41,184 nucleotides of DNA from the NCBI GenBank assembly GCA_003158395.1, contig PMIX01000382.1, positions 604 through 41,787 on the forward strand, read 5' to 3'. The notes under the pieces were generated by a model. It saw only the letters and a program-made list of their open reading frames with translations. It did not search any database and was not told the origin of the DNA. Of the stretch, positions 4,852 through 22,685 are shown piece after piece. Made by a program: the position numbers and the translations under genes. This DNA comes from Myxococcales bacterium (lineage in GTDB: Bacteria > Myxococcota_A > Polyangia > Fen-1088). Position 1 is the first letter of the stretch, and the number at the start of each line of letters is the position of its first letter.

Positions 4852-7556
4852 TGATCGCGTTGGCGGCCGGCTTGCGGCACGCGGGTCGCGGCTCGCGAGG
4901 GCGTGAGCGTGAGCGAGTTCGTGGGAGTCTGGCGGCTGGCGGTATGTGGTTCGGGCACCGCGCATCGCTCACGCCTGGGGGGCTTCGGGACGGACAGCCC
5001 ATCCTTCCCACCCCTCGCGCTTCGCGCTCGCCCGTCGCGCTCACGGGAACCGCTCACGCTATGCGCAGTACGCGCACCGCTCACGCGCGCCGGCCTTTCG
5101 GGCTGCTCGGGATCCTCTGCGTCTGGGCAGTGTTCTCGTCCAGCCTTGCGCGCGCTCAGGACGACGCTGCGGAGGCGCCGCAGCGCTTGCGACCGCCCTC
5201 GCTGTCGGTTGAGCCCGAGGCAAAGCCGGAGGCGCCCGTGAAGGTCCCCAGCTTGAAGGTGGTGCGCGTCCAGTTCCGTGGCAACCGCAAGGTCGAAGAC
5301 GACGCCATCCGCGTCACCCTGCACACGCTGCCCGGCTCGTCGCTGAATAAGGACATTCTGCAGGAGGACGTGCGCGCTATCTGGAAGATGGGTTACTTCG
5401 AAGACGTGCAGGTCGAGACCACCGATGCCCCGGGCGGCGTGGTCCTGACCTACGTGCTCAAGGAGAAGCCCGCCATCCGCAAGATCTACGTGTCGGGCCA
5501 CGAGGAGGTCGGGCTTTCCAAGATCAATGAGGTGCTCGACATCAAGAAGGAGCAGGTCCTCGACCTGGCCAAAATCAAGAAGAACGTGGAAAAGATCCGC
5601 GAACTGTACCTGCAGCGCGGCTTCTACATGGCGGATGTCGACTACGAGTTGCGCCGCGACAGCCCGGGCGAGGTGGACGTGTACTTCCACGTGCACGAGA
5701 ACAGCAAGGTGGAGGTGCGCCGGGTCAACTTCACCGGCAACAGGCACGTGACCGATCAGGAACTGCGTGACGTCATGCTGACCCAGGCCGGCGATCTCTT
5801 CTCAGCCGTGACCTCGTCGGGCACCTACCGCGAGGACGTTTTCCAGCGGGATCTGACGCTGATTCAGGGTTACTACTTCGACCGTGGTTACATAAATGTC
5901 AAGGTCGCCGAGCCTCGCCTGGAGCTGTCCGCCGACAAGCGTTCGCTCTACATCAGCATTGCCATCGACGAAGGCGAACAATACCGCATTGGCAGCATCG
6001 AGATGAAGGGCGACCTCCTCGAGAAACCCGAGGTCCTTCTCGGCCGTCTGCAGGCCAAACCGGGCGAGATCTTCAACCGCTCCAAGGTGGCGCAGGATGT
6101 TCAGGCCATCGCCGAACACTACAAGGATAAGGGCTATGCCTATGTGAACTCCACCCCCGAGACCACGGTTAACGAAAAGCAAATGACCGTGAGTTTGTTC
6201 TTTGACATCCAGAAGGGCTCCGAGGTCACCTTCGAACGCATCAACATCCACGGCAACTCGAAGACGCGCGACAAAGTCATCCGACGCGAGCTGCGCATCT
6301 ACGAGGGGGAGCGTTACAGCCAGTCCGCCCTGGACCTGTCCAAGCGCCGAGTCAATGCCTTGGGCTTCTTCGAAAAAGTCGAGACCAGCACCAAGCGTGG
6401 CTCCGGCGACGACGCCATGGAGGTCAACGTGGAGGTGGCGGAGCGGCAGACCGGTGCTTTCCAGATCGGCGCGGGTTTCTCTTCGGTCGAGTCTTTCATC
6501 GCACAGGCGCAGATCTCGCAGAATAATCTCCTCGGCCGGGGCCAGTCGCTCGTCCTCCAGGCCCAGATGTCATCACTGCGGCAGCTCTTCATGTTGCAGT
6601 TCGATGAGCCGTATTTCTTGGATACCAACTGGCACTTTGGCTTCAATTTGTTCGACCAGCAGCGCTACTACCTCGGGTTCACGCGCCAGTCTAAGGGTGG
6701 CAGCCTGACCTGGGGCTACCTCCTCACCGACTATTTGCGGATGTTCCTCACCTATACCTTGCAGGACATCTCGGTCACGACCGGGGGCCGAAGCAACCTG
6801 TTCAGTGGCGGCCAGCGCAGCCCCTTGCCCCAAGGTTCGCTGGCCAATCTCCTACACGCCGGTGTGGTCTCGTCTTGGCGTATCTCGTTGGCTTACGACA
6901 CGCGCAACGACCGCATGTTCCCGCGCAGCGGCTGGTACAACTCGATTTCCGCCGAGTTCGCCGAACCGGCTTTCTTTTCGGAAGCCCAGTTCTCACGGTT
7001 TGAAGGCACGGCGCGCTACTTCTATCCGCTGTTGGGACCGCTGGTGTTGCGCTTGAAAGGCGACATCGGCGCGGTGGTCAGCCGCGCACCTCAGGGCGTG
7101 CCCATCTTTGAGCGCTACTTCGTGGGGGGCATCTACGACGTGCGCGGCTTCCAGTTGGCCTCGCTGGGCCCGCAGATCCGCGTGCCCAGCACGCAGTCGC
7201 CCGATTCTAACCTGCGGACCTTCTCGGTAGGCGGGAACATGCAGGTCGTGGGCAAGATCGAACTCGAAATGCCCATATTCGAGAAGCTCAACATTCGCGC
7301 CGTGGTGTTCACCGACGTTGGCAATGCGTACAACCTGGAGCGTCAGTACTGCCGACTCAAGCCCGCTTCGGCTGATATCTCCGTGGATCCCTGCACGGCC
7401 GTGTTTCCGCTCAACAGCTTGCGTTCAAGTTGGGGGTTCGGACTGCGCTGGTTTTCGCCGATTGGGCCGCTGCGCTTTGAATGGGGGTTCCCCTACAAGC
7501 CGCTGCCGGGCGAGGATTCGTCGGTCTTCGAGTTCACCATTGGGAACGATTTGTAG
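4851..7556 (+). CDS. bamA: Outer membrane protein assembly factor BamA
   Basis: Central subunit of the BAM complex, which folds and inserts beta-barrel proteins into the outer membrane. After the signal peptide come repeated POTRA domains (motifs such as VRRVNFTGNRHVTDQELR and FERINIHGNSKTRDKVIRRE), then an Omp85 barrel with the diagnostic VRGF motif at about residue 764. The reading frame starts at 4851, overlapping lolD and preceded by a strong RBS. The first 70 residues are low-complexity Arg/Gly-rich sequence that does not look like BamA. A conventional signal peptide (positive RSTRTAHARR, hydrophobic GLLGILCVWAVFSSSLA, cleavage near ARAQ) begins at the ATG at 5061. The extension coincides with a dispersed intergenic repeat. 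Mature length (about 800 aa) is normal. skp follows, the classic order. Confidence 0.94.
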   Translation: MIALAAGLRHAGRGSRGRERERVRGSLAAGGMWFGHRASLTPGGLRDGQPILPTPRASRSPVALTGTAHAMRSTRTAHARRPFGLLGILCVWAVFSSSLARAQDDAAEAPQRLRPPSLSVEPEAKPEAPVKVPSLKVVRVQFRGNRKVEDDAIRVTLHTLPGSSLNKDILQEDVRAIWKMGYFEDVQVETTDAPGGVVLTYVLKEKPAIRKIYVSGHEEVGLSKINEVLDIKKEQVLDLAKIKKNVEKIRELYLQRGFYMADVDYELRRDSPGEVDVYFHVHENSKVEVRRVNFTGNRHVTDQELRDVMLTQAGDLFSAVTSSGTYREDVFQRDLTLIQGYYFDRGYINVKVAEPRLELSADKRSLYISIAIDEGEQYRIGSIEMKGDLLEKPEVLLGRLQAKPGEIFNRSKVAQDVQAIAEHYKDKGYAYVNSTPETTVNEKQMTVSLFFDIQKGSEVTFERINIHGNSKTRDKVIRRELRIYEGERYSQSALDLSKRRVNALGFFEKVETSTKRGSGDDAMEVNVEVAERQTGAFQIGAGFSSVESFIAQAQISQNNLLGRGQSLVLQAQMSSLRQLFMLQFDEPYFLDTNWHFGFNLFDQQRYYLGFTRQSKGGSLTWGYLLTDYLRMFLTYTLQDISVTTGGRSNLFSGGQRSPLPQGSLANLLHAGVVSSWRISLAYDTRNDRMFPRSGWYNSISAEFAEPAFFSEAQFSRFEGTARYFYPLLGPLVLRLKGDIGAVVSRAPQGVPIFERYFVGGIYDVRGFQLASLGPQIRVPSTQSPDSNLRTFSVGGNMQVVGKIELEMPIFEKLNIRAVVFTDVGNAYNLERQYCRLKPASADISVDPCTAVFPLNSLRSSWGFGLRWFSPIGPLRFEWGFPYKPLPGEDSSVFEFTIGNDL
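4866..4935. repeat. Dispersed GC-rich intergenic repeat, copy A
   Basis: Shares the blocks GCCGGC, GCGGGTCGCG (4881-4890) and GGGCGTGAGCG...GAGTTCGTG (ending 4923), in the same order, with copies at 10134-10181 and 34307-34370. It lies in the start region of bamA and is probably translated as part of the protein's N-terminal extension. It is followed by further GC-rich simple sequence containing CGCGCTTCGCGCTCG. Confidence 0.55.
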
Positions 7557-10967: not shown

Positions 10968-11041
10968 GGCGGGTTAGCTCAGCTGGTTAGAGCAGGCGTT
11001 TCATACGCGCCGGGCCCTCGGTTCGAGTCCGAGACCCGCCA
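10968..11041 (+). tRNA. tRNA with CAT anticodon (Met, or Ile2 if lysidine-modified)
   Basis: A full cloverleaf can be drawn. The acceptor GGCGGGT pairs perfectly with ACCCGCC; the D arm is GCTC/GAGC; the anticodon stem GGCGT/GCGCC has one G-U pair and a 7-base loop with anticodon CAT at 11002-11004; the variable loop is 5 nt; the T arm is CTCGG/CCGAG with loop TTCGAGT; the discriminator is A. No CCA is encoded. The G1-C72 pair rules out a typical initiator, leaving elongator Met or Ile2. It is the likely landmark used by the mobile element that starts just downstream. The 163 bp upstream (10805-10967) contain a TTGACA at 10879 but no convincing -10. Confidence 0.93.
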
Positions 11042-11102
11042 CAAGTACAGGTTCCACGGCAGTCCGCGAACGTCCGGCAACTAGCGCAGATCACGCGGAT
11101 TT

Positions 11103-11139
11103 ACCGTAGAATACGGTCCTGGAACGTCCGGGGCGTTCC
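11103..11139. repeat. Two adjacent inverted repeats between the tRNA and the integrase promoter
   Basis: ACCGTA-GAA-TACGGT (11103-11117) is followed by GGAACG-7 nt-CGTTCC (11121-11139). They lie in the left end of the mobile element just upstream of the integrase -35. They could be excisionase/integrase accessory sites or a tRNA terminator; the role is inferred from position only. Confidence 0.5.
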
Positions 11140-11140
11140 G

Positions 11141-11170
11141 TTGACAGCCGGAAGGGGGTGGGGGTAACTT
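11141..11170 (+). promoter_or_regulatory. Putative integrase promoter
   Basis: A perfect -35 TTGACA (11141-11146) is followed after 18 bp by TAACTT (11165-11170) as a weak -10. The -10 lies inside the first TGGGGGTAACT unit of the direct repeat, so whatever binds the repeat would probably repress this promoter. Confidence 0.5.
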
Positions 11171-11182
11171 TGGGGGTAACTC
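11160..11182 (+). repeat. 23-bp element-end direct repeat, left copy
   Basis: Two tandem units TGGGGGTAACT (11159-11169 and 11171-11181) separated by one T. The 23-bp block is identical to 22500-22522. A third unit is inverted at 11198-11208 (AGTTACCCCCA), just before the integrase ATG. Such G-rich repeats next to P4-type integrase genes are plausible arm-type integrase binding sites. Confidence 0.8.
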
Positions 11183-11222
11183 CAGATTCACGAAGACAGT
11201 TACCCCCAACGAAAGAACCCTC

Positions 11223-12440
11223 ATGCTGACCGACACCGCGATCCGCAAGGTCAAGGCGATGGGCAAGCGAGTCCGGTTGTACGACGGCGCGGGTTTGTAC
11301 CTGGAAGTGGTGCCGGCTGGTGGCAGGTGGTGGAGATTCAAGTACCGTTTCGCTGGCAAGGAGAAGCTGCTCTCGCTGGGCGTCTACCCGGAGGTGAGAT
11401 TGGCCGACGCGCGCGCCCGGTGCGCCGAAGTGCGCAAGCTACTGGCCGACGGCATTGACCCCAGCGTTCACCGCCGGGCGCAGCGTGCCGCCCGGGCCGA
11501 GAACGCCGCCAACACTTTCGAGGTGGTGGCCCGGGAGTGGTTCGAAAAGAACTCGCCTACCTGGGCGCCCAGCCATGCCACGCGCGTCTTGAGCCGGCTG
11601 GAGCGGGACGTGTTCCCCTACATCGGCGGCCGGCCTATCGGGGAACTCGCGCCGCCGGAGGTTCTGCGCGTGCTCCAGCGTATCGAGAACCGCAACGTGC
11701 TCGAAACGGCGCACCGCGTGCGGACTGACATCGGTGCCGTGTTCAGGTACGCCATCGTCACCGGTCGTGCCGATCGGGACGCGGCGGCCGACCTGCGAGG
11801 CGCCCTCAAACCTACCAACCCAGAACACTTCGCGGCCGTGACCGACCCGGGCGAGCTGGGCGAATTGCTGCGTGCGCTGTGGGGCTACCACGACGGAACG
11901 CCGGTGGTGGCGGCAGCCCTCAAGCTGGCGCCCATGCTGTTCGTGCGGCCTGGGGAACTGCGCAGCGCCAAGTGGGCGGACATCGACCTGGAGAACGGCG
12001 AGTGGAAGTTCACCGCGAGCAAGACGAAAACGCCGCACCTTGTCCCGCTGGCACCGCAAGCGGTGGCGATCTTCCGAGAACTGCAACCGCTCACCGGGCG
12101 TGGCCCCTATGTGTTCCCCAGCGCGCGCAGCAACCAGCGGCCCATGAGCAACAACGCCGTCACCGCGGCCCTGCGTCGCATGGGCATCGAACGGGCGGTG
12201 ACGTGCGGGCACGGGTTCCGCGCGACGGCGCGAACACTCCTCGACGAAGCCCTGGGCTACAGGGTCGACTTGATCGAGACGCAGCTAGCCCACGCAGTCA
12301 AAGACGCCAACGGCCGCGCGTACAACCGGACCAGTTTTCTGGCCGAGCGGCGCAAGATGATGCAGGGCTGGGCGGACTACCTCGACAAGTTGCGCGCGAA
12401 CGTGAAGGTGATTCCGTTCAAGCAGGCGGAAGGGGCGTAG
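11223..12440 (+). CDS. int: Tyrosine-type site-specific integrase (P4 family)
   Basis: Catalyses integration and excision of the element. At 405 aa it has the P4-integrase architecture: an N-terminal DUF4102-like arm-binding domain (MLTDTAIRKVKAMGKRVRLY and WWRFKYRFAGKEKLLSLGVY), a core-binding domain around residues 95-185, and a catalytic domain with Arg242 (RPGELR), Lys267 (SKTKT), His330-x-x-Arg333 (HGFR), His357 (LAH) and the nucleophile Tyr367 (AYNRTSF). All active-site residues are present, so it should be functional. It sits about 180 bp after the tRNA gene, as is usual. The promoter region carries three copies of TGGGGGTAACT, which suggests self-regulation. The next gene starts on the last base of its stop codon. 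Confidence 0.95.
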   Translation: MLTDTAIRKVKAMGKRVRLYDGAGLYLEVVPAGGRWWRFKYRFAGKEKLLSLGVYPEVRLADARARCAEVRKLLADGIDPSVHRRAQRAARAENAANTFEVVAREWFEKNSPTWAPSHATRVLSRLERDVFPYIGGRPIGELAPPEVLRVLQRIENRNVLETAHRVRTDIGAVFRYAIVTGRADRDAAADLRGALKPTNPEHFAAVTDPGELGELLRALWGYHDGTPVVAAALKLAPMLFVRPGELRSAKWADIDLENGEWKFTASKTKTPHLVPLAPQAVAIFRELQPLTGRGPYVFPSARSNQRPMSNNAVTAALRRMGIERAVTCGHGFRATARTLLDEALGYRVDLIETQLAHAVKDANGRAYNRTSFLAERRKMMQGWADYLDKLRANVKVIPFKQAEGA

Positions 12441-12892
12441 TGAAGCAATCGAGCGGCCGCGAGCATCCCGCCCCTTGGCGCCTGCATTTCTTCCAGCGCC
12501 ACCCGGCCGACGATCCCGCGCGTGTCGTGCCTGCGCTTGAGTTTCTGCGCACGTGCCCCACCAAGGTCGAGGCCATGATCGTGGCCGTGGTGAAGGCCGT
12601 AGCAGACGCGCCCCCACCGGCTTTCAGCGGTGGCGGGAAGTGGGAGGCCATGCACGGCGATATGTCCGGCTTCTACGAAGTCCGCGTCGATGGACCCAAG
12701 CGCCGCCACTATCGCCTGTTCTGCATCCTGGAACGTGGCGGCGCCTCAGTCGGGCTTGGCGGCCCCAGCGTTGTCTTGATCGCGGGCAAGGACAAGCCCT
12801 TCATGACCGTGCTGTCCGCGGCCGACTACGCCGAGGTGAAGGCTTTTGGTGCCGAATACCGAAAACGGACTCCAAGAAGTGTCATGCCGTAG
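12440..12892 (+). CDS. Putative toxin, HigB/RelE-like (Gp49-related) protein
   Basis: Probably a type II toxin of the RelE/HigB fold, a ribosome-dependent mRNA interferase in characterised relatives. The 150-aa product from GTG 12440 carries GGGKWEAMHGDMSGFYEVRV followed by a basic strand (GPKRRHYRLFCILE) and a C-terminal IAGKDKPF...AADYAEVKAFGAEYRKR. These are the layout and wording of RelE-like phage Gp49-type toxins. The GTG overlaps the integrase stop (TAGTG), so it may be translated from the integrase mRNA. Its 3' end overlaps by 11 bp that of an antitoxin-like HTH gene on the opposite strand; most higB-higA pairs are co-directional. Toxicity is inferred. Confidence 0.65.
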   Translation: MKQSSGREHPAPWRLHFFQRHPADDPARVVPALEFLRTCPTKVEAMIVAVVKAVADAPPPAFSGGGKWEAMHGDMSGFYEVRVDGPKRRHYRLFCILERGGASVGLGGPSVVLIAGKDKPFMTVLSAADYAEVKAFGAEYRKRTPRSVMP

Positions 12893-13247
12893 CGGCGAGC
12901 ACACCGGCGAGCTTGCGCGCTCTGCCTCGTTTCGCACGACCCTGCGCCGGCACAAGCGTCAGGCTGTAGCCGAGAGATCGCACAATGCTCATGACCGTGG
13001 CCAGCGTCGGGTTTGGGGCATCCATGGTGAGCAATCGGCGCATGGCCGCGGGCTGGGTTCCCGTGCGCTTGGCCAGCAACGCCTTCGACACGCCGGCCTT
13101 GCTCCGCATTTCGTCGAGCGAGCGCACGAAAGCGTCCACCGAGTCGATGCCAGCCCGCGCTTCTGTGTAGGCCGCGGCGAACTCCCGATCCTTCATCCTG
13201 TCGGTGAAGTAGCGGTCAAACCCCGTCTTGGCATGCTTGGTCTTCAT
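12882..13247 (-). CDS. Putative HigA-like antitoxin, HTH domain
   Basis: A 121-aa protein from the ATG at 13247 (MKTKHAKTGFDRYFTDRM). Residues 8-45 form a helical arm (FDRYFTDRMKDREFAAAYTE). Residues 48-110 form an XRE-type HTH with the antitoxin-family wording SKALLAKRTGTQPAAMRRLL and NPTLATVMSIVRSLGYSLTL. Proteins of this type pair with RelE/HigB toxins, and a toxin-like gene converges on it with an 11-bp 3' overlap. A -35/-10 pair directly before the ATG would give a leaderless message, and an inverted repeat between those elements could be its own operator. A basic tail (QGRAKRGRARK) follows the HTH. An upstream in-frame start at 13283 lies inside the promoter and is less likely. Confidence 0.75.
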   Translation of the reverse strand: MKTKHAKTGFDRYFTDRMKDREFAAAYTEARAGIDSVDAFVRSLDEMRSKAGVSKALLAKRTGTQPAAMRRLLTMDAPNPTLATVMSIVRSLGYSLTLVPAQGRAKRGRARKLAGVLAATA

Positions 13248-13254
13248 ACGACGG

Positions 13255-13283
13255 AGTGTAACATATGGGTTACGCCGGCTCAA
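13255..13283 (-). promoter_or_regulatory. Antitoxin promoter with overlapping operator
   Basis: On the minus strand, TTGAGC (13283-13278), a 17-bp spacer and TACACT (13260-13255) form a good sigma70-type promoter. The start point would fall at or next to the ATG at 13247. The inverted repeat GTAAC-6 nt-GTTAC (13258-13273) covers the spacer and -10, as expected for autorepression by the HTH antitoxin. Confidence 0.6.
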
Positions 13284-13351
13284 GGAGGGAATGATCGCTC
13301 CGCCCCAAGGCCGCCAGCCCTGCGGAGTAGCGCGCGGCTACGTGGCTTCGG

Positions 13352-13522
13352 CTACCCGCGTCTGGGCGGTGTTCGAGAGTCCCGCGCTACGAGGTCCTCC
13401 GGATCGGCTTCTAGCGCCGCGGCGATACGCCCCAGCCAGTTCAACGTCGGCGATTTTCTGCGGCCAAAGACCTCCCAGAAGTGCGAGCGCGCGACGGCCG
13501 CCCGACTGGCCGCTTCACTGGA
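13352..13522 (-). pseudogene. Out-of-frame XRE HTH remnant
   Basis: This frame encodes a clear second half of an XRE HTH domain: EAASRAAVARSHFWEVF then SPTLNWLGRIAAALEADPED and a stop. It lies in the -1 frame relative to the intact HTH gene at 13441-13758 and overlaps its 3' end, and no start codon or first helix precedes it in frame. A fragment with helix-one character (YFANRPGL) appears in the third frame just upstream. Together these suggest a decayed second HTH gene, or a tandem-HTH protein broken by a frameshift. Confidence 0.5.
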
Positions 13523-13758
13523 GGCCGGGCCGATTGGCGAAGTAATCTCGCCAGCGACACGCCAAAAGCCTCGGCGGCTGCCACGACCGTTCGGAGGGTT
13601 GGATTCAGGGCTGCATATTCGAGTTTTTGCAGGTGCTTGAGGTCGATTCCGACGGCGTCGGCCGCCTGCTGCTGCGACCACCGATGGGCAGCACGGAACC
13701 GCGCCAAGTTCGCGGCAAGGTTCCGCCTTGCGTTCTCGAAGGCCGGCACGGAAGCCAT
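13441..13758 (-). CDS. XRE-family HTH transcriptional regulator
   Basis: A 105-aa DNA-binding protein. Residues 5-70 form an XRE HTH: ARRNLAANLARFRAAHRWSQ, then QQAADAVGIDLKHLQKLEYA with the recognition helix, and NPTLRTVVAAAEAFGVSLARLL. The Pro/Arg tail PPVKRPVGRPSRARTSG resembles an AT-hook. The ATG at 13758 is preferred over 13776. It is divergently oriented from the zinc-ribbon/HEAT cargo gene, with 131 bp between them containing the palindrome GTAATTAC (13806-13813). The simplest reading is a local repressor of the cargo and of itself. Its 3' end overlaps an out-of-frame HTH remnant. Confidence 0.75.
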   Translation of the reverse strand: MASVPAFENARRNLAANLARFRAAHRWSQQQAADAVGIDLKHLQKLEYAALNPTLRTVVAAAEAFGVSLARLLRQSARPPVKRPVGRPSRARTSGRSLAAENRRR

Positions 13759-13889
13759 GCCCACCCGTAGCCCCAAAGCGTCCCATCAAAAACCTCACGG
13801 ATGGGGTAATTACTGACCTGGTCGTAGGAACGTCTTGAGACAGGCGCGCTTTCTGACGATAATTCTCCGAGAAGATTGGAGGTGGCACC

Positions 13890-15389
13890 TTGAGCGATCT
13901 GGAAACTGGTGCGACGAAGGGAGACGACACGAAGAAGTGCCCATTCTGCGCTGAGAGCATCAGTGGGGACGCAGTCAGCTGCCGATTTTGTGGCGCGATC
14001 ACCCAGCAATTCCATGTGTTCGACATGCGCGGTCTTTTGCTCCTTCTGGAGCCTGTCGTTGCGCTGGGCCTCTTTTCGATCTGGTACTACAAGGTCCCGG
14101 TCCTCAGCCTCCCGACCTACGTCGCGGCAGTGATGGCAGCGTTGACGGTGGTAGCGGCCACCACCGTTTCCTGGGACGAGGCCGCACTTGCTTCCTCCGC
14201 GCCGCCTGGCCGGGGGCAACGGCCCCGTCCCTTTGCGTGGTTCCTTTTCGTGCTGTGCCTGTGGGCCATCGCCTACCCCGCGCACATGTTCCGGCGGCGG
14301 CAACGGCTCGCCCCGGGCCTTCAAGCGGTGGCCAGTGCAGGCGTCGCCCTGGCACTCACGGTGACCCTGGTTGCAGGGACGTTGGGGCTGCTGCACCTGA
14401 CCCATCTGAAGCTCGAAGAGCTCCGGATCGGACAGGAGAGGGCCGCAGAGGATGCGAGAGAAGCGCAACGGGCGCTGGCGGCACGGATGGAAAAGATCGA
14501 GAACCCGCCTGTTACGTTGCAAGTGACAGCCACGACTTCTCTGGGGCACATAAACGCAAGGTTTTTCGATGGCAACTACACCCCGGGGAAGGGCAATCAC
14601 TTTCTGCTCGTTCGGGTGAGGGTGCAACTCGCCGAGGACGCGCTGGCCCCGGTTCTTTTTGCGGCGGACTCGTTTGAATTGAGGACTTCGAGCGGAGAGT
14701 TGCTTTCCGAAAACAGCGAACCGGGGATGAATCTGGCGAAGCCGTTCGGTACCCGCACCATCTACCCTGGCAAGTGGAACCAGGGCGATCTGTTATTCAC
14801 CGACGATTCGGCACCGTCGGCAACGTACGAGTTGCAATGGAAAGGACCGCGGGTTTCGGTCACCTTCAACCCAGTCAAGATTGTTGTCGATCTGCTCAAG
14901 TCCTCCAACAAGCAGACCCGCAAATGGGCGACGGAGCAGCTTTCGCAGATCGGCCCGGAAGCTCTGCCCGAGTTGTTGCGGGCGCAGAGGAAGACATTCA
15001 GCGAGGATGAGGAGGTTCAGGCCGGGGTCGCTGGGTTGGTCAAACGACTGGCGGCCCGATCAATTCCGCAACTCGTCGCCGCCCTTCGGGACAGGGAGAT
15101 CGCTGGGCAGGCCGCCTTTGCACTCAGCCAGATAGGAAGACCCGCGGCAGGCGCCGTTCCCGCGCTCACGGAATTGGCCAAGGATAGTGACACCCGGCTA
15201 CGTAGCCTGGCGATCCTCGCCCTTTCCAAGATGGGTGTGGCGGCACGACCAGGGTTCGAGCCCCTGAAAGCTGCTCTTGCCGACCCTGACGAACTGACCC
15301 GGAAGTACGCCGCCGATGCGTTGAAGGGGATTGGGGCCGATGGTCGGGCCGCCGTCGCCGCGGCTGGCAAGGATGGTGAGAAGCCTTGA
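13890..15389 (+). CDS. Zinc-ribbon, four-helix membrane protein with HEAT repeats (element cargo)
   Basis: Not a recognised named family. The 499-aa product starts at TTG 13890 behind a good RBS (GGAGGT). Residues 17-34 form a zinc ribbon (CPFC...CRFCG). Residues 47-165 contain about four hydrophobic helices (RGLLLLLEPVVALGLFSIWY; LPTYVAAVMAALTVVAATTV; FAWFLFVLCLWAIAYPAHMF; VALALTVTLVAGTLGLLHL). Residues 168-200 are a charged coiled coil and 205-325 a beta-rich domain (LQVTATTSLGHINARFFDGN). Residues 330-490 are HEAT-like repeats (LPELLRAQRKTF; IPQLVAALRDREIAGQAAFAL; AVPALTELAKDSD). The HEAT array suggests protein-protein interaction at the membrane. It overlaps the start region of the following lipoprotein-like gene and diverges from an XRE regulator, so it looks like regulated accessory cargo; a defence role is conjecture. 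Confidence 0.75.
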   Translation: MSDLETGATKGDDTKKCPFCAESISGDAVSCRFCGAITQQFHVFDMRGLLLLLEPVVALGLFSIWYYKVPVLSLPTYVAAVMAALTVVAATTVSWDEAALASSAPPGRGQRPRPFAWFLFVLCLWAIAYPAHMFRRRQRLAPGLQAVASAGVALALTVTLVAGTLGLLHLTHLKLEELRIGQERAAEDAREAQRALAARMEKIENPPVTLQVTATTSLGHINARFFDGNYTPGKGNHFLLVRVRVQLAEDALAPVLFAADSFELRTSSGELLSENSEPGMNLAKPFGTRTIYPGKWNQGDLLFTDDSAPSATYELQWKGPRVSVTFNPVKIVVDLLKSSNKQTRKWATEQLSQIGPEALPELLRAQRKTFSEDEEVQAGVAGLVKRLAARSIPQLVAALRDREIAGQAAFALSQIGRPAAGAVPALTELAKDSDTRLRSLAILALSKMGVAARPGFEPLKAALADPDELTRKYAADALKGIGADGRAAVAAAGKDGEKP

Positions 15390-15451
15390 GGCGGGCGCCT
15401 GCTTACGTATGCGCCGCTGCCACTCTTCTTCTGTCTGCAAGGAGGCCCTCT

Positions 15452-16444
15452 ATGGCGCCAGGAGGCTGGATGATGAACATTCGAGACTTCAACGCCTTCC
15501 CTCTGCTGGTGGCAGCCTTGGCAATGGGTGGCCTCGCTTGCGCGGGAATGGTTGTTCGAGAAGCAGAGTCAAACCTCGGGGCGAAATTGCATGCGCACGA
15601 GATGACCTTCGAGGTGACTGCATCGAATCAAGCGGTCGATCTTCGGGTCGCAGACGCTGTCAACGCAGCGATCGAGCAGACCGTGGCCGAACGGGGCCGA
15701 ATGCCGTCCGAACGGCTAGAACCACTGGCATATGCCGTGGTGATGCAAACTGGGATCGCGCCCGGTCTACAACGTCTTTGTGGGAATCGAACGGGCGGAT
15801 TGTGTTGCAGCCTGCTGTGCCGTGTGATGAGGACCGACGCCAAGGCTGTCATGATCGAAGCGCGTGACGATCTCGACAGAGAGTTTCGCGTTGACTCACT
15901 CGAACCCCGCGTTGACCCAACAAGACGTTGTGCGGGAGGCTCGCTATCCCAGCGTCTCCAGTGCTTGCGTGGTCTGGTCACGGCCGAACCTTCGCATGTG
16001 AAGGTCGGCCCGTTTCTCGTCTCGGGACGCATAACCTCCGCAATGGCCAAGGCCTTCGACGTTGATCTCCAGATTGTAAGAGTCCAAGTCCAGTCCGCCC
16101 GCGAGGAGCAAGCCAATAGGGAAGCGAAGGAACAAGAGGCGCATAGAGAATGGCTCTGCAATGTAAAGGTAGACGAGGCTGGCGCGGCCGTTGAGAGATG
16201 GCGGCCCGACGTCGCAAGAGTGCGTGTGGTCTGGGAGAATGCGAAAAGTTCGTGCGGGGATCTCTGGTCGCCAATTCACCAGCAGCGCATGGACAACATG
16301 GTCCGGGAGTCGGCAGATCAAGACGAGCTACGCAAAAACTACCCAGGAGAAGCCGAGAAACTTACGCGGTCACCGCGGCCGAAGAGCCGCCCGCGCAACG
16401 ATCTCGAAGAGAAGAACATCAGAGATCGCGTGCTCGGTCCGTGA
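15452..16444 (+). CDS. Exported lipoprotein-like protein of unknown function (element cargo)
   Basis: No family recognised. The chosen ATG at 15452 has AAGGAGG six bases upstream. A second ATG at 15470 has its own AGGAGG and starts directly at the signal (NIRDFNAFPLLVAALAMGGL). The frame is open back to a TTG overlapping the previous stop. The hydrophobic segment ends in GGLACAG, a possible lipoprotein cleavage site with the Cys as lipid anchor. The mature part contains many cysteines (RLCGNRTGGLCCSLLCRVM; RRCAGGSLSQRLQCLRG), a helical charged region (SAREEQANREAKEQEAHREW) and a basic C terminus (RSPRPKSRPRN). Paired with the upstream membrane/HEAT protein, it could form an envelope complex with it. 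Confidence 0.6.
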   Translation: MAPGGWMMNIRDFNAFPLLVAALAMGGLACAGMVVREAESNLGAKLHAHEMTFEVTASNQAVDLRVADAVNAAIEQTVAERGRMPSERLEPLAYAVVMQTGIAPGLQRLCGNRTGGLCCSLLCRVMRTDAKAVMIEARDDLDREFRVDSLEPRVDPTRRCAGGSLSQRLQCLRGLVTAEPSHVKVGPFLVSGRITSAMAKAFDVDLQIVRVQVQSAREEQANREAKEQEAHREWLCNVKVDEAGAAVERWRPDVARVRVVWENAKSSCGDLWSPIHQQRMDNMVRESADQDELRKNYPGEAEKLTRSPRPKSRPRNDLEEKNIRDRVLGP

Positions 16445-16446
16445 AT

Positions 16447-16463
16447 GTCGGGAAGTCCCCGAC
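16447..16463 (+). terminator. Hairpin directly after the cargo pair
   Basis: GTCGGG-5 nt-CCCGAC begins two bases after the stop of the lipoprotein-like gene. There is no U-tract, so termination is inferred from position. The rest of 16464-16682 shows no gene. Confidence 0.35.
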
Positions 16464-16682
16464 CAGCAACGTGGATAGACCGGCGGCAAGGGCATGCGCC
16501 TGGCGAGCCGCGGCTGTCGCTCGTAGCCTGTCCATCGCGCTTGTATCGTACCGGCGCCGACGCTGAGGTACACTGAGACATCCCAGGCAACCTGCCGGTT
16601 GATCTCCGGCGGGTGGGGCCGCCTCGCACCTTCGACGGCCCCAGCCTGGCTCTCTTTCGCGAAGGCGCATCGAAGGTGCAAC

Positions 16683-17588
16683 TTGTCGAAGGTCGAGAAT
16701 CCCGACGCCGCACGCAAGCGAGGGCGGCCGAGGATTGACCTCACCCCAAACTGGAGCACCAACCCTGCTTTTCGTCGCGTGCGAGCTGCGGAGCGGATAC
16801 AGGCGGAGCTATTCCTCGCTGCGTGCAAGATTCTCGATGGTGAGCCACAGGGGAAGGTTGAAGTCGATCTGCGCCGGCACTTGTCGGAATTTCCCAGCAG
16901 CGTCTGTGAATTGAAGGCGAACGAACAGCAAGCTTTCGCGGTCCGGGCATCGTGTGCCAGCATGGCGAGCCCTGATGCAATTCGGAAGGGAGGCGGCCCG
17001 GCGAAATGGGCAGATGCACAGACGGGAATCCTCATCGGTCACGGGCCGAACTGGTACAAGGACGCCGTTCGGCGCTCACCGTGGCCACCCGGAAAGCGGC
17101 GCCGCTACTCTCCAATTGCAGAAATGCGGCGCGAGATGAAACGGCACCCCAGCCGCTTCGACCGACTCACGGCTGAGGAACGGTGCTTTCTTCGTCTGCC
17201 ACAGGAGGCAAGGAATGCCATTGAGACGGCGGTGAGAGATGCATGGCAAGCCGAACGGGAGGAATGGCGGTGGCGGGGGGAACGACGGGACTTCCCCATC
17301 GTGGACTACTTCGAGCGTGGGCCGAAGGCACGGCAGTCCTTGGGCGTGCCGCCCTCTCTCAGAGACATCGTGGGGAAGGCGGTCGGGCATCTGGACAAGG
17401 GACTTCAGGCCGCCGTGCGTGGAGTGTGTCGTCGATATCTCACCAAGTGGGATGAACGACGCCAGCCCACCAAGAAGGAGGCGCGCAAACTAGGCCTGCC
17501 TGACGATTGGGCAACCGGCGGCGGCCAGCGGCGCCACCACTACGTCGACGTGACGCCGTTGCCCGCGCTGGGCCGGCTCTCGGACTGA
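16683..17588 (+). CDS. Unknown basic protein with AT-hook-like motif (element)
   Basis: Not recognised. The frame is open from 16599, but the TTG at 16683, with GAAGG six bases upstream, is the best start and gives 301 aa. The N terminus holds KRGRPRIDL, an AT-hook-like core (RGRPR) that could contact DNA. The rest is rich in Arg, Trp and charged residues (NWYKDAVRRSPWPPGKRRRY; DAWQAEREEWRWRGERRDF) with no signal peptide or membrane segment. The C-terminal part ends in GGGQRRHHYVDVTPLPALGR. It lies between the cargo pair and the replication module and could be a replication accessory or host-interaction protein; neither is shown. Confidence 0.5.
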   Translation: MSKVENPDAARKRGRPRIDLTPNWSTNPAFRRVRAAERIQAELFLAACKILDGEPQGKVEVDLRRHLSEFPSSVCELKANEQQAFAVRASCASMASPDAIRKGGGPAKWADAQTGILIGHGPNWYKDAVRRSPWPPGKRRRYSPIAEMRREMKRHPSRFDRLTAEERCFLRLPQEARNAIETAVRDAWQAEREEWRWRGERRDFPIVDYFERGPKARQSLGVPPSLRDIVGKAVGHLDKGLQAAVRGVCRRYLTKWDERRQPTKKEARKLGLPDDWATGGGQRRHHYVDVTPLPALGRLSD

Positions 17589-17675
17589 CGGGGCAGTCGA
17601 ACGGCAGGGCGAAGCCCAGGCGGCCGGCTGGTGGTGGGGATTATTACCCCCCGCAGCGCGCTCCCCTTTGCCTTC

Positions 17676-17930
17676 ATGGAACAGAAAGACGCCCCGAAGA
17701 CGGTTATGGACGAACCGCAGTCGGCACACACCCTCCTGCGCCGCCGAGAGGTCGAAATGCGGGTCGGCTTGCGGCGCAGCGCCATCTATCTCCGTCTGAC
17801 CAACGGAACCTTTCCCAAACCCATAAAACTGGGTCCGCACTCGGTCCGCTGGATTGCCCGTGAGGTCGACGCCTGGGTTGCGGCCCGCATCGCTGAGTCG
17901 CGGCCCAGCACGGCCGAGGTGCGGCTATGA
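17676..17930 (+). CDS. alpA: AlpA-family regulator/excisionase-like protein
   Basis: An 84-aa MerR-like winged-helix DNA-binding protein. The diagnostic block is LLRRREVEMRVGLRRSAIYL...GTFPKPIKLGPHSVRWIAREV then DAWVAARIAE, which is the AlpA fold (recognition helix, then F-P-x-P wing and W-x-x-x-E-V-D). AlpA proteins activate integrase/excision or early gene expression in P4-like satellites and phage-inducible islands. ATG 17676 is chosen; 17706 is an alternative just ahead of the domain. Its stop overlaps the primase start (ATGA), making it the first gene of the replication operon and likely its regulator. Confidence 0.88.
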   Translation: MEQKDAPKTVMDEPQSAHTLLRRREVEMRVGLRRSAIYLRLTNGTFPKPIKLGPHSVRWIAREVDAWVAARIAESRPSTAEVRL

Positions 17931-18988
17931 ACGCCGGCAGCAGCCCCGGCGGACCGCCAGACAGAGCCCCAGAGGTGCGGCGCCTTCTGGTTGATGCGCG
18001 CGACGTTTGCCGTCGCCTTGGGCTCGACGAAGGTGCCAAGCCGCAGGCAGGGGGGCTACTCATCCGATGCCTCTGGCACAAGGAGCGCACCCCGAGTTGC
18101 TCCGTGCGACGTGCAGCCGATGGGACACTCGCCGTCCACTGTTTCGCCTGTGACTTTGGCGGCGATGTGTTCGATCTCGTCGCGGTGGCGCACGGGTTGG
18201 AAACTCGACGGGACTTCCCCGAGGTGTTGCGGCTGGCCGCAGAACTGGCCGGCGTACCGTCAGACGGAATCGGCGCCCGCCGAGGCTCCTTCAAACCGCG
18301 GCCTCATTTTCTGGTAGAAGCCAGCTACCCGCCGGCCGAGGAGGTGTCTGGACTCTGGGCCGCCGGCCGCCCCGTGGGCGACGTGCCCAAGGTGGTCGGT
18401 TGGCTGAAGTCGAGGGCACTGGACGCGGGCGCGGTCGAGGACTTCGATCTCGCGCGGGCGTTGCCCTTGGGCGTGCGGCTGCCCTGCTGGGCTGCGTGTC
18501 GGGGGCAGGCGTGGGGCGAAGCGGGCTACCGGCTCCTCCTGCCGATGTTCGACGGGTTGGGCGTCTTGCGGAGCCTCCGCGCCCGGCGGGTGGTGAATGG
18601 CGAGGGACCAAAGAATCTGGCGCCGGCCGGGTTCTCCACCGGCGGGCTCGTGATGGCCGATGCGCTCGGGCGCAAGCTACTGGCGACAGGGCGACGCCCC
18701 GAGGGCTGGCCGGACGCGGTTCCCCTCCAGATCGTAGTCGCAGAGGGGGAGCCAGACTTCTTGACCTGGGGGACACGGTTCTCCGACGGCAACGCGACCG
18801 CGCCCGCCGTCCTGGGCCTGGTCAGCGGCAGTTGGACATCCGGCATCGCGGGCCGCTTGCCGGATGGCGCGCGGGTGATCGTCCGAACACACCTCGACGA
18901 GCCTGGCGAAAAGTACGCGCGCGCCGTCCACGAGAGCCTGCGTGGTCGTTGCACACTTCTGCGCGGGGGATTGCGAGGTGCAGCGTGA
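17927..18988 (+). CDS. DNA primase with CHC2 zinc finger and TOPRIM domain
   Basis: Synthesises RNA primers for element replication. In the 353-aa product, residues 45-85 are a CHC2 zinc finger with ligands Cys48, His51, Cys72 and Cys75 (IRCLWHKERTPSC...HCFACDFGGDVFDLV). Residues 195-350 resemble a TOPRIM region, with the glutamate motif IVVAEGEPDFL and a later acidic pair in RTHLDEPGEKYA. There is no helicase domain in this protein; the next gene probably supplies the ATPase, so the two resemble a split version of phage primase-helicase proteins. Start ATG 17927 overlaps alpA, and its stop overlaps the next gene (GTGA). High GC in this region matches the chromosome. Confidence 0.88.
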   Translation: MNAGSSPGGPPDRAPEVRRLLVDARDVCRRLGLDEGAKPQAGGLLIRCLWHKERTPSCSVRRAADGTLAVHCFACDFGGDVFDLVAVAHGLETRRDFPEVLRLAAELAGVPSDGIGARRGSFKPRPHFLVEASYPPAEEVSGLWAAGRPVGDVPKVVGWLKSRALDAGAVEDFDLARALPLGVRLPCWAACRGQAWGEAGYRLLLPMFDGLGVLRSLRARRVVNGEGPKNLAPAGFSTGGLVMADALGRKLLATGRRPEGWPDAVPLQIVVAEGEPDFLTWGTRFSDGNATAPAVLGLVSGSWTSGIAGRLPDGARVIVRTHLDEPGEKYARAVHESLRGRCTLLRGGLRGAA

Positions 18989-20583
18989 GGCCCACCAGAG
19001 ACGACAGCAAGCTGGACGACAATGCGCGCGTCCAGCGGGGCGCATTTCTTTTCAACCCGGAGGCAGACGCAGAGGAAATGCGCCCAGGCGACGGGCAGTC
19101 GGAGGCGGCGGGACCGACGGCAGTCGTGACCCCGTGGCCGACGATGGTCGACGGCGCGTACTACGGGCCACTCGGCGAAGCTGCGCGGCTGATGGAGCCG
19201 CTGACCGAGGCCGATCCGGCGGCCGTGCTGGTGCATCTGCTGGTCGCCTTCGGTAGTGCCGTTGGCCGCGGTCCGCGATTGGTGATCGGATCCATACGGC
19301 AGACGGCGAATCTGTTTGCAGTCATCGTTGGAAAGTCATCGAAGGCCCGCAAGGGTACCGCCTGGTCAAACGCGCGGGAGATCATCGGCCCGGCCGACGA
19401 GGAGTGGGCAAAAGATCGCATCAAGAGTGGACTGTCCAGCGGCGAGGGTGTCATCCACGCGGTTCGTGATGCCGTCATCGCACGGGAGCCGATTCGCGAG
19501 GGAGGCAAGAAGACGGGCAAAATCGTTGAGTATCAAGAGGTGGAGGTGGACGCCGGAGAGTCTGACAAGCGGCTCCTCGTGGTCGAGCCGGAATTCGCGC
19601 GGACCCTCAAGGCGGCCAGCCGCAGAGAGAGCACACTCTCGCCGGTTCTGCGGGAAGCGTGGGACTCCGGCAGCCTGAGCACCTTGACCAAGTCCCCGTA
19701 CAAGGCAACCGGGGCGCACGTTTCTATCGTCGGGCACATCACCAAGGACGAGCTGAAACGCGAGCTGAGCGTGTGCGACTCAGTGAACGGCTACGCCAAC
19801 CGATTCCTGTGGTGTTGCGCCCGCAGAGCCAGGGAGCTGCCATTCGGCGAAAGACGAGTTGGAGATGCGGCGGCCCCGGCGATGGTGCACATCCAAAGCG
19901 CCATCATGTGGGCACGGGCCAGGGGTGACGACTTCGTGGTTTCGATGGACTCCGGTGCCCGGCAACTGTGGAGGGCCATCTACTCGCGTCTCTCCGCTGA
20001 CCAGCCAGGCCTGGTTGGCAGCGTCCTGGGCCGTGCGGAGGCACAGGTTCTTCGGATCGCGCTGGTCTACGCGCTGGCAGACGAGTCCGATTCCGTCCGG
20101 CGGCCCCATCTGGAAGCAGCGCTCGCACTGTGGCACTTCGTCGAGGAGTCAGCCCAGAACATTTTCGGCGACGCGTTGGGGGACTCCGTGGCTGACGAGA
20201 TTCTGCGCGTCCTGCGGGAGTCCCCGGAGGGGATGACACGGGAAGGGATATGCGACCACTTCAATCGGCACACGTCGGCGCCACGGTTGACGGAAGCCCT
20301 TCGTCTACTCGCAGAGAATGGACTCGCCACCTGCACCAAAGAGGCTGCGCGCGGCGGGATAGGCAGACCCGCCGAACGGTGGTTCGCGGTGGCCAAGCGC
20401 CGCGAGGGAAGCGAGGAAAGCGACGTTAGTGGCATCCGGTCGGCTACTTCCCTCGCTAACCTCGCCAACCTCGCACCCGTGCGGGAAGAGAACCCGCCGG
20501 CCATGCGGCAGGCTCAGAATCCTCAGAACCCTCAGAATCGGGCCGGCGTGGCGTCTGGCGACGCCGAGGAGATCGAGTTATGA
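18985..20583 (+). CDS. DUF3987-type ATPase/helicase-like replication protein
   Basis: A 532-aa protein from GTG 18985, which overlaps the primase stop. It matches the DUF3987 layout seen in satellite and prophage replication proteins. An N-terminal GPLGEAARLMEPLTEADPAA and FGSAVGRGPRLVIG block precedes a P-loop-like segment (VIVGKSSKARKGTAWS, residues 114-128), then a LVVEPEFARTLK strand, an IVGHITKDELKREL segment and the RFLWCCARRA box. A helical region (RAEAQVLRIALVYALAD) and a winged-helix-like C terminus (ESPEGMTREGICDHFNRH) follow. It probably works with the primase in origin opening or unwinding. The tail is Asn/Pro/Gln-rich. The stop overlaps the next gene. Confidence 0.75.
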   Translation: MRPTRDDSKLDDNARVQRGAFLFNPEADAEEMRPGDGQSEAAGPTAVVTPWPTMVDGAYYGPLGEAARLMEPLTEADPAAVLVHLLVAFGSAVGRGPRLVIGSIRQTANLFAVIVGKSSKARKGTAWSNAREIIGPADEEWAKDRIKSGLSSGEGVIHAVRDAVIAREPIREGGKKTGKIVEYQEVEVDAGESDKRLLVVEPEFARTLKAASRRESTLSPVLREAWDSGSLSTLTKSPYKATGAHVSIVGHITKDELKRELSVCDSVNGYANRFLWCCARRARELPFGERRVGDAAAPAMVHIQSAIMWARARGDDFVVSMDSGARQLWRAIYSRLSADQPGLVGSVLGRAEAQVLRIALVYALADESDSVRRPHLEAALALWHFVEESAQNIFGDALGDSVADEILRVLRESPEGMTREGICDHFNRHTSAPRLTEALRLLAENGLATCTKEAARGGIGRPAERWFAVAKRREGSEESDVSGIRSATSLANLANLAPVREENPPAMRQAQNPQNPQNRAGVASGDAEEIEL

Positions 20584-21140
20584 CCCCCGAAGCCAGGAAA
20601 GTCCTGGCCCTCGCAGGCGCTCGCGGCGTTTCGGTCACGCTGGGGCAGGGCGGCCAGACGATCCGCCTTCACGGCCCAAGGGAGGCGCTCGCGGAACTGA
20701 AACCGGAGGTGGCAGCGCACAAGCCCGACCTGCTGCGCCTGCTGCGCGAGCCCCGGCAGGTTGAGGCGTCCCGTGCGTGGGCGGAAACGTTTGCGCGCCT
20801 CGCGGCCCTGTACCCGGACTCGCTGGCCGGCAAGCTGTGGACCGAGGTGGAGGCCACCTTTCCCAACCTGGCCGGGACCATTGATGCAGCAGAGCGAGCG
20901 GCCGACGTGGCCGCACTTGACTACCAGGCCGGCCGAGGAGCTGCTCCAGAGACGTTCCTGGCGTGCCTGGCGACCTGGGAAGCCCGCTGGGGCGAGGCCA
21001 TTGCGGCAGCCACGGCCCGCGGCGGTGCCTGCGACGACTGCGGCCGGGCCGACGCCACCGTCATGGTCACGACGGGCACGGGGCGTTTCTGCCGGCGATG
21101 CCTCAACCCAACGATGAAAGGAGCGCGGCACGATGCCTGA
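20580..21140 (+). CDS. Small protein with TubC-like N-terminal domain and C-terminal zinc ribbon
   Basis: The 186-aa product begins with a region resembling the TubC docking domain (VLALAGARGVSVTLGQGGQ, then LAELKPEVAAHKPDLLRLL). This fold mediates protein docking in myxobacterial NRPS lines and is often found beside phage-type primases. A helical middle precedes a C-terminal zinc ribbon (CDDC near residue 156 and CRRC near 175). No catalytic motif is visible. It is tightly coupled to the upstream DUF3987 gene (ATGA) and to the next gene. A role as an adaptor in the replication complex is inferred. Confidence 0.6.
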   Translation: MTPEARKVLALAGARGVSVTLGQGGQTIRLHGPREALAELKPEVAAHKPDLLRLLREPRQVEASRAWAETFARLAALYPDSLAGKLWTEVEATFPNLAGTIDAAERAADVAALDYQAGRGAAPETFLACLATWEARWGEAIAAATARGGACDDCGRADATVMVTTGTGRFCRRCLNPTMKGARHDA

Positions 21141-21336
21141 AGCCACGTGTCAGCGTGAAGCCTGTTCCTGCTGTGGCAGCTCGACTTGGGCTGAGGCGCA
21201 TTTCGCAGCCGGCGCGCTCGTCTGCCGCGGGTGCTGGTGCGAGATAGAGGCGAGCGGTCGCAAGGGTCCGCCGGCCCAACGTAGTGGCGCCACCGAAGGC
21301 GACACTTGTAAAGAACCAGACAGAAGGAAAGCGTGA
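21133..21336 (+). CDS. Small cysteine-rich (zinc-ribbon-like) protein
   Basis: A 67-aa protein with CSCC near the N terminus and CRGCWC further on, spaced like a small zinc ribbon. It overlaps the preceding gene by 8 bases, and its Lys/Arg/Pro tail (RKGPPAQRSGATEGDTCKEP) is probably disordered. No function recognised. The position inside an unbroken operon supports it being real. Confidence 0.5.
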   Translation: MPEATCQREACSCCGSSTWAEAHFAAGALVCRGCWCEIEASGRKGPPAQRSGATEGDTCKEPDRRKA

Positions 21337-21339
21337 AAC

Positions 21340-21765
21340 ATGGTGAAATCAGATCACAAAACCTCACATCCCGCGGTGTCAGCGAATCAGCAACTTGCCA
21401 TCGACGTCTTGCTGGCCGGTGGCACCGATTCCGAGGCCGCCCAGGCTGCATCCGTCACGCGCGAAACCGTCTGTCGATGGCGGCACTCGGACGCCGACTT
21501 CATAGCCGCCTACAACCGCGAACGGCGGGCGGCCTCCGAGGCCACGGCGGACAGCCTGCGTCAGGCCTCGCTGAAGGCCATCAAGACGCTTTCGGATATC
21601 CTTTCCGACGAAGATTGCTCCTTGCGAATCAAGGCGGCGTCAATCCTCCTGGGACAGTACGACGAGGCGCAAGCGCCGGGTGATACCGACCCCGAGGCCA
21701 TCCGGGCAGGGTGGGACGAAGCCCGCCGCGAGCGTGAGCATCGTGCGTTTTTTGGCCAGCCATGA
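21340..21765 (+). CDS. HTH protein resembling a phage terminase small subunit
   Basis: The 141-aa protein has an N-terminal HTH (NQQLAIDVLLAGGTDSEAAQ, then AASVTRETVCRWRHSDADFI) and a helical region (ATADSLRQASLKAIKTLSDI, then LRIKAASILLGQY). This layout matches phBC6A51-type HTH and terminase small-subunit-like proteins, which recognise pac/cos DNA. In phage satellites a private small terminase redirects the helper phage's packaging machine to satellite DNA; if that applies here, this gene would be the packaging hijacker. A plain transcription regulator cannot be excluded. It starts 3 bases after the preceding stop and overlaps the next gene. Confidence 0.6.
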   Translation: MVKSDHKTSHPAVSANQQLAIDVLLAGGTDSEAAQAASVTRETVCRWRHSDADFIAAYNRERRAASEATADSLRQASLKAIKTLSDILSDEDCSLRIKAASILLGQYDEAQAPGDTDPEAIRAGWDEARREREHRAFFGQP

Positions 21766-21965
21766 CCGCGGCCGAGTCTGACCTGCGCGGCGAAGTCGCC
21801 CTTGCGATCCTGGCCTATCTCTCGTGGGCCGAATACCACGGCGGCACCAAGTCCCTGCTTGACGGTAGCGTTGCGGCCCGGCTCACGGCTGGCCGGCTGT
21901 ACGATTCTGGAATCAGCCGAGCGCTCGTGAAGCTAATGCGCCAGCGCCGGGGTCCTGTTGGCTGA
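21762..21965 (+). CDS. Small protein of unknown function (element)
   Basis: A 67-aa, helix-rich protein (EVALAILAYLSWAEYHGGTK; LTAGRLYDSGISRALVKLM). The ATG overlaps the previous stop (ATGA), and its own 3' end overlaps the next gene. Support comes from operon continuity rather than any domain. Confidence 0.45.
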   Translation: MTAAESDLRGEVALAILAYLSWAEYHGGTKSLLDGSVAARLTAGRLYDSGISRALVKLMRQRRGPVG

Positions 21966-22407
21966 CAAACATCGTCCGGTAGACCCTTTCGACCTAAGCA
22001 CCTGGCATTGCCTTGACTACCGTGGCGAGGGTGCAGAAGATCTCTCGCGAGAGGTAGACATGACGCAAGAAGAACTAGCTGTGGCTTTGGTGAATGCACG
22101 CGCAGATCTCTTGAAAGCGCGACGAGACAGAGACAATGCCCAAAGGGTCAAACAAGACAGCGAAAGCGCCAAGGACAAGTTGTCAGCCTCATTCGACGCC
22201 ATGATTCCAATGAGGGTCGACTCTATCGCTACAGGAGTTACAGCCAAGGCGTGCGCTGACGGCGCCATTCGTTTTGCCAAGGCGGTGGCCACGTGGCAGG
22301 CGGCAGAAACGGCTCTGGTCACAGCTCAGGCATCGCTGGATGCGTGTACGACAGCGGCCGACAATGCACTCGCAGCACTCATAGTCGTTTGTCAGCCGAC
22401 CGGATAA
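21958..22407 (+). CDS. Helical coiled-coil protein of unknown function (element, last gene)
   Basis: Up to 149 aa from TTG 21958; an ATG at 22060 with GAGAGG upstream is an alternative that starts at MTQEELAVALVNARADLLKA. The main body is a long amphipathic helix series (LVNARADLLKARRDRDNAQR; AETALVTAQASLDACTTAAD) suggesting a coiled coil. Base composition is visibly less GC-rich than the neighbours, consistent with recent acquisition. No domain recognised. After it, 22408-22685 (278 bp) contains no gene, only the inverted repeat and the right-end direct repeat. Confidence 0.45.
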   Translation: MADKHRPVDPFDLSTWHCLDYRGEGAEDLSREVDMTQEELAVALVNARADLLKARRDRDNAQRVKQDSESAKDKLSASFDAMIPMRVDSIATGVTAKACADGAIRFAKAVATWQAAETALVTAQASLDACTTAADNALAALIVVCQPTG

Positions 22408-22424
22408 GCATGTAACGTAGTACA

Positions 22425-22473
22425 GGCGTGGACAGCTCGCAGCCGTGCCATCCGGTTTCCTTTGGTCCACGCC
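22425..22473. repeat. 9-bp inverted repeat near the right end of the element
   Basis: GGCGTGGAC (22425-22433) and GTCCACGCC (22465-22473) are perfect inverted copies 31 bp apart, between the last gene and the right direct repeat. It could be a recombination-protein site, a terminator stem or an origin feature. Confidence 0.45.
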
Positions 22474-22499
22474 GGCCGACGTCCCACGGCTCCCTTTCC

Positions 22500-22522
22500 G
22501 GGGGTAACTTTGGGGGTAACTC
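22500..22522 (+). repeat. 23-bp element-end direct repeat, right copy
   Basis: Identical over 23 bp to 11160-11182: two GGGGGTAACT units, one T apart. Unlike the left copy, it is not preceded by a -35 or followed by an inverted third unit. It marks the right end, or an integrase arm site near the right end. 22523-22685 then holds no gene. Confidence 0.8.
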
Positions 22523-22685
22523 ACCGTCGGGCAGATCGAAAAATGTAACGATTCTGCGTCGGTGCGCGGTCAGTTTGGTAGCGAGACCCCACGAGCAGGG
22601 TTGCGCCTTCTGGCACAGCCCTGGGTTGGGACGCGCGATCTCGCGGTCAGCGCCGGGGCAAGCGTGGCGAGGCCTCTGGCTTTCG

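Follow-up and report, generated by a model that had tools for sequence, protein, structure and literature searches.

A zinc-ribbon membrane protein with seemingly exchangeable C-terminal domains and a probable lipoprotein as accessory genes of a satellite-like element in Myxococcota

New phage-defence genes have repeatedly come from satellites, chiefly those of Vibrionaceae and Enterobacteria, and published satellites hold anti-phage genes in exchangeable slots (PMC9122126, PMC10803314). Here, we analysed a window of 41,184 nucleotides (positions 604–41787 on one contig of a 5.35-Mb draft genome) from a host in the Myxococcota, a phylum with few studied phages. An element integrated in this window resembles the PICI/PICMI satellites, which have int, AlpA, and a DUF3987 primase (PMC10803314). 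It likewise has an integrase, AlpA, a primase/helicase, and a small-terminase-like gene, and further likenesses are its size of ~11.6 kb, an accessory slot, the lack of recognised capsid genes, and defence cargo in sister elements. It differs in its myxococcotal host and in its integration site, which is tRNA-Met, whereas strict PICMIs integrate at fis. Of the functions tied to induction and packaging by a helper phage, its genes show the TerS-like one only. Like the P4/P2 antiviral hotspots (PMC9122126), it has exchangeable accessory genes that include known defence genes in sister elements; unlike them, the cargo of the window is not a recognised defence system. This cargo consists of two adjacent genes, gene 1 and gene 2, and our data support their placement as accessory genes carried by a PICI/PICMI-like satellite that occupies tRNA-Met. 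See Table 1 for all features.

Table 1. Features of the integrated element and its integration site (positions are those of the window)
Feature	Position	Strand	Remarks
tRNA-Met(CAT), integration target	10968..11042	+	ARAGORN; site empty in L094 and L097
Integrated element	11043..22680		Right edge known to ~20 bp; blastn of flanks vs empty sites
Integrase arm-type repeat GGGGGTAACTTTGGGGGTAACTC, copy 1	11160..11182	+	Inverted single unit at 11198-11207
Tyrosine integrase, P4-type	11223..12440	+	Arm-DNA-bind_3 + Phage_int_M + Phage_integrase
Possible YoeB/Gp49-like toxin	12437..12892	+	Weak, E 0.009
XRE / addiction-antidote-like regulator	12882..13283	-	
XRE regulator, RstR-like	13441..13776	-	HTH_3 E 1.5e-9; RstR family E 5.6e-10
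Promoter-like site TTGAGA-17-GATAAT	13835..13863	+	1 found vs 0.5 expected
Gene 1: zinc ribbon, four hydrophobic helices, long helix, DUF4352-like domain, HEAT	13890..15389	+	
Gene 2: probable lipoprotein, orphan, helical C-terminal part	15470..16444	+	Start 15452, 15470 or 15473
6-bp hairpin without T-run	16447..16463		
329-aa ORF of unknown function	16599..17588	+	
AlpA	17631..17930	+	E 9.1e-16
Primase, CHC2 zinc finger	17927..18988	+	
Helicase, DUF3987 kind	18988..20583	+	DUF3987 detected in homologue L035, not in window copy
Small-terminase-like protein	21340..21765	+	PHROG 4044 E 4.6e-7; Sf6_terminase E 2e-5, below cut-off
Integrase arm-type repeat, copy 2	22500..22522	+	

The borders of the element were set by blastn against two genomes of the same genus, L094 and L097, in which the flanks are joined and the tRNA-Met site is empty. 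The left-flank match runs to 11071 or 11042, and that of the right flank resumes at 22676 or 22695, which gives the length of ~11.6 kb for an element that starts directly 3′ of the tRNA-Met gene. No word of at least 9 bases is shared between the tRNA 3′ end and the right edge as an att core. Five exact GGGGGTAACT units are confined to the two ends of the element (11160–11207 and 22500–22522), a count reached in 0 of 100 shuffles even with one mismatch allowed, and these are probably the expected integrase arm sites. The int, alpA, and primase genes lie together within these borders. The empty site in the sister genomes, together with relatives of gene 1 on contigs with element genes, bears out a sequence-only reading that had taken the two genes as cargo of an integrated element. 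Toward the left end, a weak YoeB/Gp49-like ORF is convergent with an antidote-like XRE gene (12437–13283), an unusual layout for a toxin-antitoxin pair.

We traced related elements in the same host family via the helicase and found that their accessory genes differ. Upstream of its AlpA-primase genes, L034 has a full MmeI-like type IIG restriction gene (1719–5162; 1455 bits), and L033 has an AIPR/AbiU gene between integrase and tRNA-Ala (1698–3374; E 1.1e-25). L032, the element with the most similar helicase (80%), is without either cargo gene of the window. This variation mirrors that of published satellites with anti-phage genes in exchangeable slots (PMC9122126, PMC10803314). A dCTP-deaminase-like gene (L034:595–1167; E 3.7e-34) lies beside the restriction gene of L034. 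Nucleotide-depleting deaminases are known in defence.

Gene 1 starts with TTG, 6 nt after GGAGGT, a strong ribosome site, and encodes 499 aa in the sole stop-free frame of the six over its length, which also has the best codon log-odds. The zinc ribbon (C17-x2-C20-x10-C31-x2-C34, residues 17–34) precedes the transmembrane (TM) helices and is assigned by its cysteine pattern, as the match to UPF0547 (E 8.5e-5) scores 23 against a curated cut-off of 29. Four hydrophobic helices follow at residues 47–67, 74–93, 115–134, and 145–170. A long helix continues from the fourth hydrophobic one (residues 142–200), and the earlier description as a zinc-ribbon, four-helix, HEAT-repeat membrane protein was confirmed. 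That description overlooked a beta domain at ~206–335 that is DUF4352-like. All matches to DUF4352 (PF11611) score under the 25.9-bit cut-off, with E 0.15 in gene 1 and E 0.0042 and 0.0033 in two relatives. The HEAT repeats extend to ~490 (HEAT_2, E 2e-13). An AlphaFold model is confident for the HEAT part alone and poor elsewhere (pLDDT 54), and Foldseek returned no match of this model to viral structures at E≤0.001. Weaker Foldseek matches (E 0.02–1), among them DUF4352 proteins and lipoproteins of phages, were not taken as evidence.

In its ribbon, TM helices, and DUF4352-like domain, gene 1 resembles zinc-ribbon/SHOCT membrane proteins (UPF0547, PF09851) and DUF4352 proteins. It differs from them by the HEAT fusion, by a conserved membrane module marked by PxxWFLxxLLLWxIxxPxYxxxRRR, and by the mobile-element setting of its subfamily. 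Superinfection immunity proteins of Klebsiella plasmids also have a zinc ribbon, and tblastn finds 62% over 29 aa in that part, with no similarity to gene 1 outside it. Imm_superinfect (PF14373) is absent from the Pfam matches of gene 1 at E≤1. PADLOC defence profiles match nothing beyond generic HEAT; this includes PDLC01150, a candidate defence family that matches in the HEAT part alone (E 7.1e-5). The earlier reading of the letters of the DNA had likewise matched the pair to no named defence or superinfection-exclusion system. In the literature, we found nothing specific on the domain combination of gene 1.

Among 84,980 species scanned, we found a single full-length relative of gene 1, L038, on a same-genus contig (L038/L053) identical in sequence to record PMZX01000505.1. 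In plasmids and phages, tblastn of gene 1 gave ribbon and generic HEAT matches only, and no relative was confirmed in viral contigs. L038 and gene 1 share 64% identity over 494 aa, and their dN/dS of ~0.24 (a simple NG86 count) shows purifying selection. By part, identity is 74% in the membrane module, 72% in HEAT, 44% in the ribbon, and 40% in the long helix. A two-sequence profile added L051 and L052, both from this genus, and no further strong member among 318 genomes of the class. The four strong members occur one each in 4 of 7 genomes of the genus and in no other genus among these 318 genomes. A four-sequence profile run over the order gave E<1e-76 for the four members, which are themselves in the profile, versus E≥1e-9 for everything else; the next-best matches (E 1e-9) are mostly to the zinc ribbon alone.

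All four members have the ribbon and the membrane module with its conserved motif, and their C-termini differ: DUF4352-HEAT in gene 1, DUF4352 without HEAT in L051, and a VasI-like domain (E 4e-7) in L052. The full domain order of gene 1 occurs in one relative only. An N-terminal SHOCT-containing part is common to L038 (by homology) and L052 (by profile). L038 adjoins HTH_17 and a PriCT_1/AAA_25 replication protein, and L052 adjoins an integrase, an AAA_25 protein, and a TerS-like ORF. The L051 contig is just 5.2 kb, and its element markers are weak: an RHH protein similar to that of L052. In total, three of the four members adjoin clear element genes, and we found no member at a constant position in the chromosome. 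Had homologues been mainly core chromosomal genes, this would have spoken against a cargo role; for the subfamily, profile search and neighbourhoods instead show element contigs. Judged from these sequences, gene 1 belongs to a small, genus-restricted membrane subfamily with exchangeable C-terminal domains, and this subfamily seems adapted to mobile elements.

Gene 1 diverges from the RstR-like XRE regulator, as stated earlier, and is the first gene of a rightward set running on to AlpA and primase. The promoter-like site is placed correctly between the XRE gene and gene 1, yet its count alone is not significant. Behind such an XRE-controlled promoter, gene 1 may be switched on together with the element. 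As to topology, loop 3 (RRRxR) of every member contains 4–5 K/R and lacks D/E. By the positive-inside rule, a positively charged loop is expected to be cytoplasmic, and loop 3 is therefore predicted to lie there. If loop 3 and the zinc ribbon are both cytoplasmic, helix 3, with a proline close to its end, may fail to cross fully, and the C-terminal domains would be periplasmic. Four cysteines after the last helix of L051 fit an exported C-terminus. We infer that the C-terminal domain of gene 1 probably faces the periplasm; four full crossings may instead put it in the cytoplasm.

Gene 2 has ATG candidates at 15452, 15470, and 15473, with Shine-Dalgarno sequences AAGGAGG and AGGAGG, and comprises 323–330 codons (323 aa from 15473). 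Its frame is the sole stop-free one of six over its length and has the best codon log-odds, though weakly (0.044 per codon). The signal segment ends in GGLAC, which the loose PROSITE lipobox pattern admits and the strict one does not (non-canonical Gly at −3), and on this pattern gene 2 is probably an exported lipoprotein. The label “Cys-rich” holds in part: the signal segment is there, along with nine Cys (eight after the presumed anchor Cys), but the Cys content of 2.8% is mild. We found no relatives of gene 2 in phages, plasmids, viral contigs, or 331 genomes of the phylum, nor in the scan of 84,980 species (close relatives only) or the draft genome of L038. A model made without an alignment (pLDDT 54) is confident in the C-terminal helical part only. 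Residues 193–240 matched kinesin light chain and TPR-like repeats in the PDB (E 0.0037), which we regard as helical resemblance and not homology. The hairpin thought to end the two genes is present as a perfect 6-bp stem; it has no T-run, and 27 of 200 shuffles fold at least as well as this stretch, so we rejected it as a terminator.

Since sister elements carry known anti-phage genes, the cargo may shield the envelope of the host from phages, and by this analogy superinfection exclusion is our leading, if tentative, mechanism for gene 1. Gene 1 would be an inner-membrane protein with a cytoplasmic zinc ribbon, the conserved membrane module, and an exchangeable C-terminal domain, most likely acting when mobile elements compete. 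Its exchangeable domain would bind or sense the injection or wall-active machinery of an incoming phage, or a host envelope factor that the phage needs, and the membrane part would then block DNA entry or signal it. The empty tRNA-Met site, the four-member subfamily on element contigs, and 64% identity at an omega of 0.24 argue for this, as do the swapping of C-terminal domains behind a shared membrane module, the AbiU/AIPR and type IIG restriction genes of sister elements, and published satellites with defence slots (PMC9122126, PMC10803314). However, apart from generic HEAT, no profile of a known defence or exclusion family matches gene 1, its model is poor outside HEAT (pLDDT 54), and one relative only has the full domain order. 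Topology also divides the readings. Four full crossings would make the C-terminus cytoplasmic, and the beta and HEAT domains could then sense a phage product there and open the membrane, as in abortive infection. The four hydrophobic helices, the predicted continuous helix into the C-terminal half, and the HEAT repeats that recur in PDLC01150 would suit such a protein, but the HEAT match is generic, and the strongly positive loop 3 and the Cys pattern of L051 speak against an outside loop 3 and for an exported C-terminus, as exclusion would have it. We consider abortive infection quite unlikely.

Related zinc-ribbon-TM proteins in ordinary chromosomal settings (L072, L071, and L054, same genus, with other C-termini) also weigh against exclusion, since they suggest that the cassette may have more general functions in the envelope. 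Gene 1 could then be a lysogenic-conversion factor not directed at phages, an envelope sensor or adaptor (ZnR-TM-X) that alters stress response, adhesion, or surface. For envelope-stress systems, the literature discusses zinc ribbon and SHOCT-like domains as modules of assembly at the membrane (PMC11237479; PMC3581485), and within the genus the same kind of ribbon with a TM is followed by domains read by eye as Sel1-like, Ig/RCC1-like, or PH-like (in L068, L069, L071, L072, L054, and L055, some chromosomal). This reading is possible but somewhat doubtful, as the membrane-module subfamily is small and accessory, and its members, as noted above, were found next to element genes (clear ones for three of four) and not at any constant chromosomal position. 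Within exclusion, a bolder version is unlikely as it stands: a modular family in Myxococcota whose periplasmic recognition domain would be swapped (DUF4352-HEAT, DUF4352, VasI-like) to match phages. If true, a genus-restricted membrane family with swapped C-termini on several myxobacterial elements would offer a testable route to envelope-level immunity. Finally, genes 1 and 2 had been presented as a two-gene unit. They lie on the same strand, 62–83 nt apart, no clear terminator was found between them, and the L052 member also neighbours an unrelated exported Cys-containing gene. Nevertheless, no relative of the lipoprotein lies beside L038, L051, or L052, or in the draft genome of L038; therefore, the two genes are not conserved as a unit, and one obligatory two-component system is improbable. 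Gene 2 is a separate envelope gene, probably a new acquisition, and may assist gene 1 without being an obligatory partner.

The exported neighbour in L052 (9616–10086) encodes 156 aa and lies upstream of the gene 1 relative on the same strand; from this one case, an exported gene beside a gene 1 member may recur. Elsewhere in the genus, zinc-ribbon-TM proteins continue into Sel1-like repeats with cysteines or into other domains (L068:1936–5704, L072:5431–6864, and L071:2604–4562), and L068 has three consecutive zinc-ribbon genes near an integrase.
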